Shown piece after piece: positions 6,441-26,338 of a DNA stretch of 64,000 nt. Each line of letters opens with the position of its first letter. The first letter of the stretch is position 1. Made by a program: the position numbers and the translations under genes. The notes under the pieces were generated by a model. That model did not search any database. It was not told the DNA's origin and saw nothing but the letters and a program-made list of their open reading frames with translations. Source of the DNA: Methylobacterium sp. CB376 (GTDB lineage: Bacteria > Pseudomonadota > Alphaproteobacteria > Rhizobiales > Beijerinckiaceae); assembly GCF_029714205.1 (NCBI RefSeq), contig NZ_CP121648.1:6859501-6923500 (forward strand). The letters are read 5' to 3'.

Positions 6441-7392
6441 CCCCGGTGTCGAGGAAGCCCGGGTTCATCCCCTCCACCGGCGGCGGGCGCCGGCGGACCG
6501 GGCGGGGCGCGTTGCTGGCGGTCGGGGCCGTGCTCACCGTCAAGCCGAGCCGCGTCGCGAGCGAGAGCACGCGCGCCTCGGTGATGCGCAGGTGGCAGAA
6601 GCCGTGCACCCCCTCGCGGGCATAGGCGCGGCACATCTGCTCCCGGTCCGCCGAGAAGGCCGCCTGCTCGGCGACGATCGGGCGGACCTCCTCGCGCTTG
6701 GCGCGCTGGGTCATCACCCGGTAGTTCTCGCGCACGGCGCGGTCGGCCGCCCCGCGGGCGCCGTCGAATTCCTGGGCGCGCGTCACCAGGGAGGCCGCGC
6801 CCGGCCCCCACAGGCCCTTCGGGGTGGTGGCGCAGTCCTGGGCCTGGAACACGCAGATGTCGGGCTCCGTCAGGGGCGTGACGAGCACGCTGCCCTCCAG
6901 GATCTCCATTCGGAGCGGGCAGACCAGGTCCGACGAGGCCAGCCGCGTGACCCCGTTCGGCCGCCCCTGGTCGGTGAGGGCGAGGGGCGCCCCGTTGTTG
7001 AGCGACACCCGGCAGGATTCGATCGGCTGCGAGATCCGGGTGCCCTCGAGGGTGACGCGGGCGGTGAGGCCGCCCTGGGCCCGTTCCAGCTTCAGGCTGC
7101 CGGCACTGCCGTTCTGCAGCAGGTCCTGGCCGATGGCGCCGTCGTCGCTCGGCGCCTTGATCACCACCGGCCTCGGCGCCGGGGGCGGCGCCGCCGGGCG
7201 CGGATCGGCCGCCGGGGGCGGCGCGTCCATCGGGGCCGCGGGCGCGGCCGGGCGGGGCGGCGCGGCCGGGCGCGCCGCCCGCCCGATGCCGAACAGCTCC
7301 TCGAAGAAGTTCTGGGCGGAGGCCGGGGCGGGCAGGGCGGCCCCGGCGAGGGCCAGGACGAGGGCCGTGGCGAGGGGGCGGAACGAGGGCAT
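6436..7392 (-). CDS. secreted hypothetical protein with proline/alanine-rich linker
   Basis: A 318-residue protein. The start at ATG 7392 is chosen because it begins directly with a signal peptide (hydrophobic residues 8-25, cleavage likely after PASAQ). An Ala/Pro-rich linker (about residues 40-85) precedes a globular domain with conserved-looking cysteines: ESCRVSLNNG, SSDLVCPLRMEI, DICVFQAQDCA, EQMCRAYAR and HGFCHLRITEA. The segment HGFCHLRI may bind metal. No named family is recognised. It is divergent from dnaK, and its 3' end runs into repeat copy A. Confidence 0.75.
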   Translation of the reverse strand: MPSFRPLATALVLALAGAALPAPASAQNFFEELFGIGRAARPAAPPRPAAPAAPMDAPPPAADPRPAAPPPAPRPVVIKAPSDDGAIGQDLLQNGSAGSLKLERAQGGLTARVTLEGTRISQPIESCRVSLNNGAPLALTDQGRPNGVTRLASSDLVCPLRMEILEGSVLVTPLTEPDICVFQAQDCATTPKGLWGPGAASLVTRAQEFDGARGAADRAVRENYRVMTQRAKREEVRPIVAEQAAFSADREQMCRAYAREGVHGFCHLRITEARVLSLATRLGLTVSTAPTASNAPRPVRRRPPPVEGMNPGFLDTGE

Positions 7393-7661
7393 CAGGCTCC
7401 TGAGCAGGCTCGCGGCAAGCGCCCGGTCGGTCCCGGACGACGACAGGCCCGCATCCCGACCGACAGGGCGGCCCGCCCGGGGCAGGTCCACCCGGGGCAG
7501 GTCCGCGCAAGGACGCGACGCGCAGACCTTCCTCCTAGCATGCGCCCCGTGGCGGGCGCGTGGCAAGGCCGCAACATTCTCGTGGCGGCTTGGCCGCTGG
7601 CCCGGATTCGCAGTTGACGGACGGGCCGCGCGCGGGCCGTCTCGGCGGGAGGGGACCTCGC

Positions 7662-7690
7662 CTTGCGGGCCTCCGGCGGCGTTCTTATAT
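7662..7690 (+). promoter_or_regulatory. RpoH (sigma-32)-type promoter of dnaK
   Basis: CTTG and CTTATAT are separated by 18 bases, matching the alphaproteobacterial heat-shock promoter form (CTTG, 17-18 bases, CYTATNT). It lies about 150 bases before the dnaK start codon, so a leader of about 145 bases is implied. The remaining divergent region 7393-7841 holds no gene. It has a 14-bp direct repeat (CCCGGGGCAGGTCC at 7476-7489 and 7491-7504) of unknown role. Confidence 0.6.
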
Positions 7691-7841
7691 CGCGTCCGGC
7701 GCGGGTCCCGGATCGTCTCTCCCCCCGAGGTTCCAGCGGATCCCGCCCGGCACAACCGATCTTCGTCACCTGTAGCACCATGGGCCGAGCTGCTTCGGGG
7801 CTCGGCGGTCTGCTTAAAAAACATCAACGAGGGATCCCACC

Positions 7842-9761
<1,920 letters not shown>

Positions 9762-13585: not shown

Positions 13586-13835
13586 GTCAGGATCTTGCTG
13601 GCCTTTCTTGCTGTGCCGCACGAGAACTCGGCCGGAACCGCCGGGCGCCCTCCCGCGGGCCGATCTCCTCGTCCCTGCGGGGACTTGGCGGCTTGTCCTC
13701 GGGTGCCCGCCCCGTGCCGCGGCGGCGTTTGACTCCCTCCCGTCAAGTCTTCCTTCATGAAAGCGCGTCAGCGTGGCTGGAAGGCGGTCGCGGCCCGGAG
13801 GGCGGCGGCGGGGCGGCAGGGGGACCGAGAGCGCG

Positions 13836-18295: not shown

Positions 18296-18676
18296 CCGGG
18301 CACGCGGCGCACCCGCCCCACGCCGCCGGCTGCCTCGGCGCGGGCCGCCGGCGCGCGGTGATCGCCCGCACCGCGCCGCCATCGCGCGACCCCGCCGGAC
18401 TCCCTCGCGGACGCAGCGCGCGCCGCGGGGCTGGTCTCCCGCGGCATCGCCGGCCCGGAGGATGCCGGGATGCGCGGCCTCGTCGGCTTCGACGGCGCGG
18501 CGCCGATCGCGGATGTCCTCCGGCCATCGCGGCCTTGCCCGGGAGCCGGCGCGCCGCTACATTCCCCTGCGTCAAGCTCCTCGCAATCCTGCCCGGTGGA
18601 GCGGCTGCTCCGACCGGCCGAGGTTCTGTGACCGTTCGGCCGGCGCGGAGGGCGACCCCCGCCCGAGGCGAGACCG
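18296..18676. other. GC-rich spacer, possible gene remnant
   Basis: No complete gene is supported. One plus-strand frame (about 18395-18540) translates to protein-like segments such as LADAARAAGLVSRGIAGPED and MRGLVGFDGAAPIADVLR, with G/C third positions but no start codon or Shine-Dalgarno. It could be a decayed gene or chance. The promoter of the YunG-like gene should lie at the right end. Confidence 0.3.
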
Positions 18677-23472: not shown

Positions 23473-23898
23473 CTACGCGCCCAGCGCGAGCGCCCGCGGC
23501 GCCCGCGCCGCGGCGGCCCGGCGCCGGGGGGGCGGGGCGAGGCGCACGAGGTCGGCCAGCGGCACGAAGCCCTCCGTCTCCGGCGCGGGCAGCCGCGTGC
23601 CGAAGCCGAGCGCGAAGGAGAGGGTGAGCTTCGGATCGGGCGCGATGCCGAAGGCCTGCAGGGCGGCCAGGAACGCCTCGCGGAAGCTGCGCACGCCGCA
23701 CCACGCCTTCTCGGAGAGGTGCAGCGGCCAGTCCCAGTAGCCGTCCGGACGCTTGGCGCCGAGGCTCCCGCGGGCGATGAAGTAGCCGGTGGCGCGGTGC
23801 TCCAGCCCGTCCTCCGACAGGATCCAGTCCCGGTTCTCGAACAGCACCGCGTCGTCGAGGCCGGTCGCCGCCGAGGTTGCCGTCAAGGTCGCCGCCAT
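23473..23898 (-). CDS. conserved-looking hypothetical protein
   Basis: A 141-residue soluble protein; ATG 23898 is chosen because GGAGG lies 9 bases upstream. Distinct patches are ENRDWILSEDGLEHRATGYF, the tryptophan-rich DGYWDWPLHLSEKAWCG, and FREAFLAALQAFGI, ending in an Ala/Arg-rich tail. No family is recognised. Its promoter region contains the LexA-box-like sequence at 23961-23975, 63 bases upstream, so damage induction is possible for it as well as for the divergent operon. Confidence 0.6.
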   Translation of the reverse strand: MAATLTATSAATGLDDAVLFENRDWILSEDGLEHRATGYFIARGSLGAKRPDGYWDWPLHLSEKAWCGVRSFREAFLAALQAFGIAPDPKLTLSFALGFGTRLPAPETEGFVPLADLVRLAPPPRRRAAAARAPRALALGA

Positions 23899-23960
23899 GA
23901 TCACAGGCCTCCCGGTCCCGGTGCGGGCCCGTGCCGCGTGGCGCCGGCGCCCGATTCATG

Positions 23961-23975
23961 GAACAGATAAGGAAC
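23961..23975. promoter_or_regulatory. LexA (SOS) box, alphaproteobacterial type
   Basis: GAAC-AGATAAG-GAAC reads GTTC-CTTATCT-GTTC on the minus strand, an exact match to the direct-repeat GTTC-N7-GTTC recognised by alphaproteobacterial LexA. It sits in an AT-richer divergent promoter region, 130 bases before the coiled-coil gene and 63 bases before the 23898 gene. With 8 fixed positions a match can arise by chance, but its position upstream of a Rad50/Mre11-like operon makes function plausible. Confidence 0.55.
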
Positions 23976-24104
23976 ACTGGTCCGATTTGCGGCACAGGTC
24001 AATGGCTCTCGGCGAACAATCCCGGAACGGCGTCGGGGCGGACTTTCCCCTGGCGCCCGGGCCCGCCCGATGCCACCTCTGTCCCGCACGCGACGGGGAG
24101 GAGC

Positions 24105-24404
24105 ATGGAGCGCAGCCGGACGAGCCAGGAGACCGAGGCCCTCAGGCGGTTGGAGGCCCTGCGCCCGGCCTACGAGCGCCTGCGGGCGGACCGCATCCGG
24201 GCGGAGGGCGACGTCGAGCGCCTGAGCGCGGAGCTGGAGGCCGCCCGCGCCCAGGCCCGGGAGGAGCTCGGCACCGACGACGAGGCGGCGATCCGGGCGA
24301 TGATCGAGGAGGTCCGGGCCGAGAATGCCCGCCGGGTCGAGGCCTTCGCGCAGGCGCTGCGCGCCGTGCAGGCCGAGCTCGACGGCCTCTCCGAGGCGCG
24401 CTGA
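24105..24404 (+). CDS. small coiled-coil protein, first gene of the Rad50/Mre11-like operon
   Basis: A 99-residue, almost wholly helical acidic/basic protein with heptad-like leucine/alanine spacing (ALRRLEALRPAYERLRADR and DVERLSAELEAARAQAREEL), then AIRAMIEEVRAENARRVEAF. GGGGAGGAG precedes ATG 24105. Its stop overlaps the next gene's start as ATGA, implying coupled translation and stoichiometric production. It may supply part of the second coiled-coil arm that is nearly missing from the permuted ATPase, or act as a regulator; both are inference. No known family is recognised. Confidence 0.75.
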   Translation: MERSRTSQETEALRRLEALRPAYERLRADRIRAEGDVERLSAELEAARAQAREELGTDDEAAIRAMIEEVRAENARRVEAFAQALRAVQAELDGLSEAR

Positions 24405-26338
24405 TGAGCCCTGCGGAGGCCGCGGCCGCCCTCGACCGGCTCGGCCGCGCGCTCGCGCGCGCCGAGGCGCGCCGGGCCGCCCTGACCGGGGAGCGCGACG
24501 GGCTGGTCCGGGCGGTCGCGGCCGCCAAGGGCCGGCTGGAGCGGCGCGACGCGGTCGATCTCTGCCTGCGCGAGCTGCAGCAGGAGACCCACCAGCGCAG
24601 CCTCGCCCGCATCGAGACCCTGCTCTCGGCCGTGGTGCAGGAGGTGCTGCCGGGGGAGAAGCCGGTCTCCCTCGACCTCACCACGGAGCGCGGCCTGCCC
24701 GCCCTCGACATCGGCCTGCTGCGGCCGGACGGCGGCCGCGAGGACGTGCTGGAGGACAATGGCGGGGCCATGACCAACGTGGTCGGGATGGGCCTGCGGC
24801 TGATCGCGGTGGTCAAGGCGGGTTTGGGGCGCTTCATCGCCCTCGACGAGGCCGATTGCTGGATCGCGCCGGCGCGGGTGCCGGCCTTCTACCGGGTGCT
24901 GGAGGACGGGGCGGCGCGGCTGTCCCTGCAATGCCTCGCCATCTCGCACCACGACGTCACGGGCTTTCCGCCCGGCACGCGGGTGAGCCGCATCGGCGGC
25001 GACCCGGCGCGCGGCGTGCTGATCGACGGCCCGGCCGAGGAATGCGCCGCCGCCTGGGAGCCCGACGCGCCGGGCTTCCGCCACATCCGCCTGATCGACG
25101 TGCAGGGCTTCGCCGACGCGGTCCTGCCCCTCGCGCCGGGCGTCAACGCGCTGGTGGGGCCGAACAACCGCGGCAAGTCGACGGTGATCCGGGCCCTGCG
25201 CGCGGTCTTCTACGGCGAGGCCCGCGACGGGCTGGTGCGGGCCGGCAAGCCCGCCTGCCGGATCGAGATCGGGGTGGCGGGCGGCCGGATCCTGCGCTTC
25301 GTGCGCCAGGTTCGGCGCTCGCCCGTCAACCTGTGGTCGCTGCACGAGCCGGACGGATCCCTGGTCCGCCAGGACGGGGCGACGCTGGAGACCGGCGGCC
25401 GGGACGTGCCGGACTGGGTCGACCGGCTCTTCGGCATCACCCGGGTCGAGGAGCTGGAGGTCCACGTCGCGCACCAGAAATTCCCGGTCTTCCTCCTCGG
25501 CGAGAAGGCGCCCAAGCGCTCCGCCGTGCTCTCGCTCGGCCGGGAGGCCGGCTACATCCGCGCCATGCAGGACCTCCAGCGCGAGCGCGTGGCGGAGGAC
25601 CAGCGCGCCGTGCGCGAGGGCGAGCGGCGCCTCGCTCTCCTGGCCGAGCTCCTCGCCCCCCTGGCCGGACTCGAGGCGGCGGCCGCCTCCCTCGCGGCCC
25701 TGCGCGAGGAGGCCGGGCGCCTCGCCGAGGGCGAGCGGCGCCTCGCCGGAATCGAGGCCGGGCTGAGCGCCCTGGCGCGGCTGCGCGCCGCCCGGGACGC
25801 GGCCTCGGGCCGGGCCCGGGCCCTCGCGGCCCTGCCGGGCCCGGAGGTCCCGGCCGACCTCGCCCGCGGGCTCGCCGAGGCGCGCCACCGGGAGGGCGTG
25901 GGGGAGCGTCTCCTCGGCCTGTCCCGGGACCTCGCCCGCGCGCGGGCCCAGCTGGCGGCCCTGGCGGGCCTGCCGGCGGCGCCGGTGCCGCGGGCGAGCG
26001 CCGCCGCCGAGGCCCACGCCGCCGCCCTGGCGCGCCTCGCCGCCGACCTCGCCCGGGCGCGCGCCCGGGCGGCGGCGCTCGCGGCCCTGCCCGAGGCGGC
26101 GCCGGCCCTCGCCGCGCCGGAGGCGGCCCTGCGCGGCGCCCGGCGCCTCGCGGAGCTCGGCCGGCAGCTCGCCGCGGCGCGGGGGCGGACGGCCGAGGCG
26201 CGGGCGGGCCTCGCCGCGATCGAGGCCGAGACCGCGGCGCTGCTCGCCGCGACCGGCGGGCGCTGCCCGGCCTGCGGCGGCACAGCCGCCCCGGAGAGCC
26301 TGCTCGACGGGCACCGCCACGCGGGGGCGGCCGCGTGA
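24404..26338 (+). CDS. Rad50/SbcC-like ABC ATPase with permuted head halves
   Basis: A 644-residue SMC/Rad50-type ATPase in unusual order. Residues 1-70 are coiled coil. Residues 80-185 resemble the C-terminal head half: an NGG-containing signature-like helix (EDNGGAMTNVVGMGLRL, 117-133), Walker B FIALDEADCW (D148, E149) and an H-loop AISHHD (179-184). Only afterwards come the N-terminal-type features: IRLIDVQGFADAV at 228-240 and Walker A GPNNRGKS at 252-259. About 220 residues of coiled coil follow from about 400, ending in a zinc-hook-like CPAC (621-624) near the C-terminus. The order equals Rad50 opened at the hook and joined between its two termini. It overlaps its neighbours as ATGA and GTGA. 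Expected role is DNA end or hairpin processing with the downstream nuclease. Confidence 0.85.
   Translation: MSPAEAAAALDRLGRALARAEARRAALTGERDGLVRAVAAAKGRLERRDAVDLCLRELQQETHQRSLARIETLLSAVVQEVLPGEKPVSLDLTTERGLPALDIGLLRPDGGREDVLEDNGGAMTNVVGMGLRLIAVVKAGLGRFIALDEADCWIAPARVPAFYRVLEDGAARLSLQCLAISHHDVTGFPPGTRVSRIGGDPARGVLIDGPAEECAAAWEPDAPGFRHIRLIDVQGFADAVLPLAPGVNALVGPNNRGKSTVIRALRAVFYGEARDGLVRAGKPACRIEIGVAGGRILRFVRQVRRSPVNLWSLHEPDGSLVRQDGATLETGGRDVPDWVDRLFGITRVEELEVHVAHQKFPVFLLGEKAPKRSAVLSLGREAGYIRAMQDLQRERVAEDQRAVREGERRLALLAELLAPLAGLEAAAASLAALREEAGRLAEGERRLAGIEAGLSALARLRAARDAASGRARALAALPGPEVPADLARGLAEARHREGVGERLLGLSRDLARARAQLAALAGLPAAPVPRASAAAEAHAAALARLAADLARARARAAALAALPEAAPALAAPEAALRGARRLAELGRQLAAARGRTAEARAGLAAIEAETAALLAATGGRCPACGGTAAPESLLDGHRHAGAAA

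Follow-up and report, generated by a model that had tools for sequence, protein, structure and literature searches.

A 64,000-nucleotide stretch of the genome of Methylobacterium sp. CB376 (contig NZ_CP121648.1, positions 6,859,501 to 6,923,500; hereafter the window) harbors a circularly permuted Rad50-type ATPase, in which the C-terminal lobe of the ATPase head (C-lobe) is encoded ahead of the N-terminal lobe (N-lobe), and this permuted Mre11-Rad50 variant is real, conserved and undescribed as far as the literature search reached. The gene is a single clean open reading frame (ORF) of 644 amino acids at positions 24404-26338 of the forward strand, comprising in this order a Rad50-like C-lobe, an N-lobe, one arm and a CPAC motif, and the two neighboring products pointed to by a first-pass annotation of the same DNA are a small coil protein and an Mre11 homologue. 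The operon probably encodes an Mre11-Rad50 (SbcCD-type) DNA-end-processing machine, whose Rad50 would consist of the permuted chain together with the small coil protein. No permuted head of Rad50 or of a structural maintenance of chromosomes (SMC) protein was described in the literature searched, which included few subscription papers, nor in the passages of PMC7824862 and PMC3710099.

The reversed lobe order was recovered by profile comparison with solved structures, where a family profile built from 53 relatives matched Rad50 twice, with the lobes swapped. In 5f3w, profile positions 223-438 aligned with chain residues 5-221 and positions 126-185 with residues 289-348, and in 3qku, positions 225-263 aligned with residues 5-43 and positions 129-201 with residues 279-350 (12.0 bits for the latter). 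The PHROGs families of the split halves fell on the chain in the same reversed arrangement, with phrog_15167 (211 positions) on residues 9-183 (E 8e-5) and phrog_16465 (491 positions) on residues 227-405 (E 1.4e-8), and the only Pfam match above cut-off was the P-loop part, as AAA_23. The hook region was likewise matched, profile positions 561-624 aligning with residues 13-79 of 6zff (E 2.1e-5), which we take to be a zinc-hook Rad50 construct; this match draws on the family profile, since the C-terminus of a single split protein used as a query gave no Rad50 match for the zinc hook. Foldseek matched the lobes, the N-lobe included, to Rad50 chains, and the second-ranked C-lobe match was 1f2u_B (TMt 0.71, the model range not being given by Foldseek), presumably the C-terminal fragment of Rad50. 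The monomer prediction that had been proposed as a check places both lobes confidently within one chain, as the ten-residue blocks of the AlphaFold 2 (AF2) model over residues 1-350 score 79 to 97, with 24 of the 35 above 90.

The features of Rad50/SbcC present in the permuted chain include an N-lobe with Walker A and Q-loop and a C-lobe with signature, Walker B and H-loop; those absent are the order N-lobe, arm, hook, arm, C-lobe and the central CxxC between two arms. The positions first read for D148-E149, the H-loop, GPNNRGKS (252-259) and CPAC (621-624) were confirmed in the ORF, where the Walker B context reads FIALDEAD and the H-loop SHHD, and G121, N125, D148, E149, H182, G252, G257, K258, Q358, C621 and C624 are invariant in the 53-sequence alignment. 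The usual Rad50/SbcC signature form is SGGE, and that of the permuted protein is of the NGGA type, with the invariant N125. The C-lobe had been placed at about residues 80-185 and does lie there, but together with its arm stub it takes up residues 1-208, the stub of arm 2 being a helix at residues 3-46 ahead of the lobe that runs on in 48-81 in the AF2 secondary structure. The joint between the lobes (residues 209-226) corresponds to the former natural termini of Rad50, and the Walker B to Walker A distance is 104-108 residues in 65 of 71 loci and 113-175 in the remaining six. In the AF2 model the helix of arm 1 breaks near 421, 476-480, 521-532 and 561-572, and the 20 residues that follow CPAC to the end of the chain are modelled as a short helix, with no SMC hinge domain at the arm tip. 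The coordinates of all features are collected in Table 1.

Table 1. Features of the permuted Rad50 operon and its upstream region; positions are those of the window, residues those of the 644-aa chain, and pLDDT is the predicted local distance difference test.
Feature	Position	Strand	Basis
Circularly permuted Rad50-type ATPase, 644 aa	24404..26338	+	sequence, alignment, profile, AF2
C-lobe, residues 48-208 (approximate boundary)	24545..25027	+	AF2 secondary structure, phrog_15167, Foldseek
Signature-type motif NGGAMTNVVGMGLR, residues 119-132	24758..24799	+	G121, N125 invariant; G120 at least 90%
Walker B FIALDE, residues 144-149	24833..24850	+	D148, E149 invariant
H-loop His182-His183	24947..24952	+	H182 invariant
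Joint C-lobe/N-lobe, residues 209-226	25028..25081	+	pLDDT 91, 93, 95 in blocks 201-230
N-lobe, residues 227-379	25082..25540	+	
Walker A GPNNRGKS, residues 252-259	25157..25180	+	Pfam match, alignment
Q-loop HQK, residues 357-359	25472..25480	+	Q358 invariant
Arm 1, residues 380-620	25541..26263	+	AF2
Zinc-hook type CPAC, residues 621-624	26264..26275	+	C621, C624 invariant; 6zff profile match
Small coil protein, 99 aa, GTDD motif mid-protein	24105..24404	+	sequence; homologues in split operons
Mre11/SbcD-type metallophosphoesterase, 330 aa	26335..27327	+	profile, Foldseek, motifs
GAAC-N7-GAAC box 1, alphaproteobacterial LexA (SOS)-type, between divergent gene and coil gene	23961..23975	+	exact match
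GAAC-N7-GAAC box 2, 53 bp after box 1	24014..24028	+	exact match
Divergent 143-aa gene, operon membership uncertain	23473..23904	-	conserved in 51/61 genome loci

The permuted order was found to be conserved among the homologues collected. Altogether 74 permuted loci were analysed, 13 from plasmids and 61 from genomes, which are not independent and include many from Microvirga, and the order Walker B, Walker A, CxxC was retained in 71 of them, the other three being cut by contig ends; in these 71 loci the CxxC lies 7-58 residues from the C-terminus. A frameshift or chimera, already considered unlikely when the sequence was first read in one frame, is ruled out by the preservation of both order and frame in 71 of 74 loci, and the further permuted loci likewise rule out a fusion unique to the window gene. 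The related loci come from alpha-, beta- and gammaproteobacteria. At E<=1e-3 a search with the permuted protein returned 307 proteins, the best 120 being listed, and in 21 of 22 plasmid records, from Bosea, Methylorubrum, Rhizobium, Acidiphilium, Variovorax, Pseudomonas, Vibrio, Aeromonas and Alteromonas, the match runs unbroken through both halves, the 22nd record, from Cetobacterium, being covered at the N-lobe only. The 63 loci of the genome scan comprise the 61 permuted ones, one split locus (L073) and one C-lobe fragment at a contig end (L074). The permuted gene was detected in 14 of 89 genomes of the genus, in 6 of 139 of the family and, as a match through both lobes, in 2 of 297 in the sample of the order, and no permuted member was confirmed in viral_contigs in scans with the queries A1 and A7. 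The length of arm 1, measured from Walker A to CxxC, changes by steps of about 40 residues in the closest lineages (290, 330, 370) and ranges from 312 to 409 in farther members, and its sequence suggests tandem repetition of a unit of about 39-40 residues. A self-match at lag 39 was the best in four of five relatives tested (L105, L108, L111 and L004), not in L005 and not in the window.

The three genes of the operon are tightly packed, the stop of the coil gene overlapping the start of the permuted gene (TGATG) and the start of the phosphoesterase gene overlapping the stop of the permuted gene (GTGA). The coil gene is present in all 74 loci, its stop at most 17 bases from an in-frame start of the permuted gene, with an offset to the nearest such start of 0 or -3 in 53 of 74; the Mre11-like gene is present in 71 of 74, the three misses lying at a contig edge, and its start is offset by -3 from the permuted stop in 52 of 70. 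The profile of the phosphoesterase matches Mre11 and SbcD (best E 1.3e-9), its Foldseek ranks 1-23 are exclusively Mre11 or Mre11-Rad50 entries (best E 3.6e-8), the metal motifs GDPH, LLGDLF, GNHD, LTHHD and GHVH are all present, and the protein ends in a three-helix tail that may be the Rad50-binding part. The coil protein is probably the missing hook-distal piece of the second arm, because its gene directly precedes the C-lobe, exactly where a canonical gene would encode the hook-distal part of arm 2. The first-pass description of a second arm reduced to a stub thus stands for the chain itself, and the distal arm would be supplied by the separate coil gene. Among the proteins tested for a natural fusion of coil and permuted chain, only P0101 has both in one frame, and its middle looks like a frameshift; in L056 and L064 the long ORFs are mere frame extensions. 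An ATP-dependent helicase gene lies upstream of the coil gene in L006, L008, L086 and L087 (of UvrD type in L086), and a divergent RecQ-type gene was observed in L007 and L009.

The operon is likely damage-controlled through putative LexA boxes. The alphaproteobacterial LexA motif has been published as GTTC-N7-GTTC (PMC3323433), the other strand of GAAC-N7-GAAC. Four matches to GAAC-N7-GAAC occur in the window against 0.79 expected, two of them upstream of the coil gene and two other exact boxes at 13624-13638 and 18623-18637, and an exact copy stands upstream of lexA in the same genome. In 52 of the 74 loci a box lies at most 300 bp ahead of the coil gene, where the same loci would lead one to expect 0.059 sites per region; these box-bearing loci are mostly from Methylobacterium and Microvirga. 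The divergent 143-aa gene on the other side of the boxes is matched by neither Pfam nor NCBIfam at E<=1, and the boxes may serve it, the operon or both. Lysyl-tRNA synthetase, aminotransferase, transporter and luciferase-like neighbors were found only in L012 of the 61 genome loci, within about 4 kb on each side. Across the 89 genomes of the genus, canonical SbcC was called in 26, the permuted gene in 14, both in none and neither in 49 (Fisher p 0.008, not corrected for descent), and no SbcC match at 1e-20 was obtained in the window genome. Boxes and SbcC exclusion together point to a repair machine of the Mre11-Rad50 type, probably damage-inducible.

The split relatives, represented by locus L073 and by phage and plasmid loci, encode N-lobe, coil, C-lobe and Mre11 as separate genes. 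At E<=1e-3 a search with the stand-alone C-lobe returned 1684 proteins. One C-lobe protein, P0216, carries a Planctomycetes annotation; the phylum of L073, whose listed genomes show no overlap with those listed for the Pseudomonadota sample, is presumably Planctomycetota, and a stand-alone C-lobe was detected there in 10 of 246 genomes. All ten loci (L105-L114, L114 being the same locus as L073) read N-lobe, Mre11, coil, C-lobe on the same strand. Hidden Markov models (HMMs) A2-A5, built from mixed permuted and split rows that included L073/L114 and none of L105-L113, recover the four parts in each of the nine loci L105-L113, the coil at E 7.6e-19 or better throughout. This order recurs in a Microcystis phage, whose coil was recognized by annotation and sequence where the HMM did not reach, and a Bacillus phage and the Cetobacterium plasmid read N-lobe, coil, C-lobe, Mre11. 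The N-lobe stands ahead of the C-lobe in all 14 loci with both (L010, L011, L094, L095 and L105-L114), and an unfused order coil, C-lobe, N-lobe, Mre11 was found in none of these 14; the stretch read of Magritte phage (L093) holds the C-lobe only. All 13 N-lobe proteins inspected, L010 not being among them, carry a CxxC 9-24 residues from the C-terminus, which indicates that the split Rad50s are cut just after the hook. Wherever a coil was recognized in split loci it directly precedes the C-lobe, except in L094, a 485-kb uncultured huge phage that reads N-lobe, Mre11, coil, clamp-like gene, C-lobe, the sliding-clamp-like gene (recognized by eye) at 6816-7949 lying between the small coil and C-lobe genes. 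In the Cetobacterium plasmid (L010), the N-lobe gene at 7977-9123 appears as two overlapping frames, with the CxxC in the second, and an IscB gene sits between the C-lobe and Mre11 genes.

In these relatives the halves remain on individual genes divided at the zinc hook, a layout suggesting that gene fusion rebuilt the DNA-repair machine of the permuted family. In a tree of the joined lobes with 29 permuted, 14 split and 2 canonical rows, rooted with E. coli SbcC and T4 gp46, the permuted rows form one clade (Shimodaira-Hasegawa-like approximate likelihood ratio support 95.8; 75 with the C-lobe alone and 90 with the N-lobe alone), and they nest among the split rows with supports of 81-88, the outgroup branches being long. 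The window order coil, C-lobe.N-lobe, Mre11 is moreover a rotation of the split order N-lobe, Mre11, coil, C-lobe. The best history is accordingly one in which a hook-split Rad50 was re-fused in rotated order: a Rad50 gene would have been cut just past the hook to give the split operon N-lobe, Mre11, coil, C-lobe, whose order would then have been rotated, and a single event in a proteobacterial ancestor or mobile element would have fused C-lobe and N-lobe. The idea that the halves might belong to separate genes joined only here is borne out in its first part by the separate-gene homologues and not in its second, as the fusion defines a clade across three proteobacterial classes. The original proposal, that Rad50 was opened at its hook and its termini joined, is retained for the topology of the head, and its one-step route is disfavored. 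Tandem duplication followed by trimming is the textbook route to circular permutation, and by such a route a tandem-duplicated single-chain SbcC would have been trimmed at the hook, the split systems being sister or derived. A tree with all split rows in one clade is in fact not rejected (approximately unbiased (AU) test p 0.159), so that the split rows need not be ancestral. Direct permutation nevertheless appears unlikely, since it does not by itself explain the separate coil gene shared with the split operons before the C-lobe, the operon as a whole has the split gene order in rotated form, and the permuted rows nest among the split rows. Given this AU value and the long outgroup branches, the main grounds for a split-to-fused direction are the coil gene common to both kinds of operon and the rotated order.

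Besides that tree comparison, several results weigh against the interpretation of the operon as a damage-inducible Mre11-Rad50 machine. For the head, the C-lobe pieces of the 5f3w and 3qku matches are weak when taken singly (4.1 and 12.0 bits), and when stand-alone C-lobes alone were used as a profile, no Rad50 chain was reached at E<=1 among solved structures, the best match being the cohesin SMC head fusion 6qpw_E (E 2.4e-4, 144-185); the AF2 predicted template-modelling score is 0.59, and lobe-lobe packing and arm pairing are putative. The coil length, mostly 92-127 aa, shows no correlation with the arm length (rho 0.06, n=68), and this speaks against the coil being a plain one-to-one second arm. 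As for regulation, 22 of the 74 loci have no box, CTGT-N8-ACAG being absent from them and CTG-N10-CAG occurring in 3 of 22, at chance level; recA of the window genome has only a one-mismatch copy; and box 1 lies nearer to the start of the divergent gene (57 bp) than to that of the coil gene (130 bp), the sharing of the box region lowering the odds slightly. SbcC was called at E 1e-20 because the family cut-off was passed by 0 of 89 genus genomes and 1 of 14 controls, and at the same E value the permuted gene is rare, turning up in 2 of the 398 genomes sampled from the phylum. Finally, the metal motifs of the phosphoesterase are lost in all eight members of one gammaproteobacterial clade (L006, L007, L008, L009, L072, L086, L087 and L088), seven of them carried by plasmids between 328 kb and 1.17 Mb in size, with gene and operon place retained, and nuclease activity therefore cannot be the whole function there. 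The gammaproteobacterial L071, outside this clade, retains the motifs.

Lamassu, PARIS and Gabija are defence systems that use a Rad50-like sensor, and the permuted operon could in principle be another such system, directed against phages or plasmids: it is patchy and carried on megaplasmids, and the PADLOC models of LmuB (E 2.9e-10), GajA and others match its P-loop half. This is quite unlikely, however, as the 25 PADLOC families shown, out of 49, all match within residues 212-350 and none of these covers the C-lobe, the best match, LmuB, spans 228-314, the coil protein reaches no better than E 0.08 in PADLOC and the phosphoesterase is unmatched there, and the annotated neighbors on several plasmids are genes of repair and replication (RecQ, an ATP-dependent helicase, RecJ, LigD, topoisomerase and RdgC). 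An SMC-like structural complex that tethers DNA or forms loops on large replicons, with no role as a nuclease machine, is very improbable, because, although the motif loss in that clade of mostly large plasmids and the position of the Variovorax operon near parAB and a replication gene would suit it, GNHD is exact in 90 of 102 aligned phosphoesterase rows, only four differing besides the eight of the clade (GSHD, GNHE, GQHD and a gap), and the SMC hinge is replaced by an arm ending in CxxC.

For the Mre11-Rad50 machine we infer the ATPase, nuclease and arm roles as follows. The permuted chain would run from the arm-2 stub through C-lobe, short joint, N-lobe and arm 1 to the CxxC, with the coil protein supplying the distal part of arm 2 near the hook. 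One chain would fold a complete head from both lobes and two heads would sandwich two ATP, while arm 1 would have the N-terminal stub as its partner close to the head and the coil protein at a greater distance from it, and two CxxC ends would share one zinc. ATP hydrolysis would power the Mre11 nuclease at broken or blocked DNA ends, and DNA damage would induce the operon through LexA. More tentatively, the Rad50 ring might be open by design, with a one-chain permuted head, a hook-distal second arm formed by an exchangeable coil subunit whose binding and release would gate DNA, and a modular arm 1 of about 40-residue units, in a machine evolved from head halves on separate genes; if this were true, a continuous arm-hook-arm polypeptide would be unnecessary for Rad50 function. 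Rad50, SbcC and SMC proteins are treated as a single plan of N-lobe, arm, hinge or hook, arm and C-lobe, from which the permuted family departs with the working motifs kept. It makes testable whether the head lobes must connect through the arms for ATP signals to reach hook and nuclease, and in the split relatives the pieces of Rad50 come as individual proteins. For Methylobacterium genomes without detected canonical SbcC, the operon may also serve as a damage-inducible repair system.

Compared with known systems, the permuted system matches the Lamassu LmuB/GajA-type ATPases in the P-loop half only, its partner genes being unmatched. The hinge-less marine SMC proteins also have an unusual SMC-like topology, but they carry no CxxC, and the passages of PMC12153180 on them mention no permuted order of the lobes. 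The Mre11/Rad50 fusion proteins, such as Mimivirus R555 and others, two of them with one SbcC P-loop segment unobserved, are likewise rearranged Mre11-Rad50 genes on viruses and plasmids; in them, however, Mre11 is joined to Rad50, and a permuted head is not described in the passages and section 6 of PMC3175470. The split Rad50 operons of phages (phrog_16465 and phrog_15167), the Cetobacterium plasmid and the phylum of L073 share the same four parts, but as separate genes with the N-lobe first in 14 of 14, whereas in the window C-lobe and N-lobe are fused in reverse and the operon is rotated. With canonical Mre11-Rad50/SbcCD, the permuted system has in common the two head lobes, the Q-loop, the CxxC hook motif and a partner of the Mre11 type; it differs in that the C-lobe precedes the N-lobe and the CxxC lies near the C-terminus, in a chain that is without most of the second arm and always accompanied by a separate coil gene.

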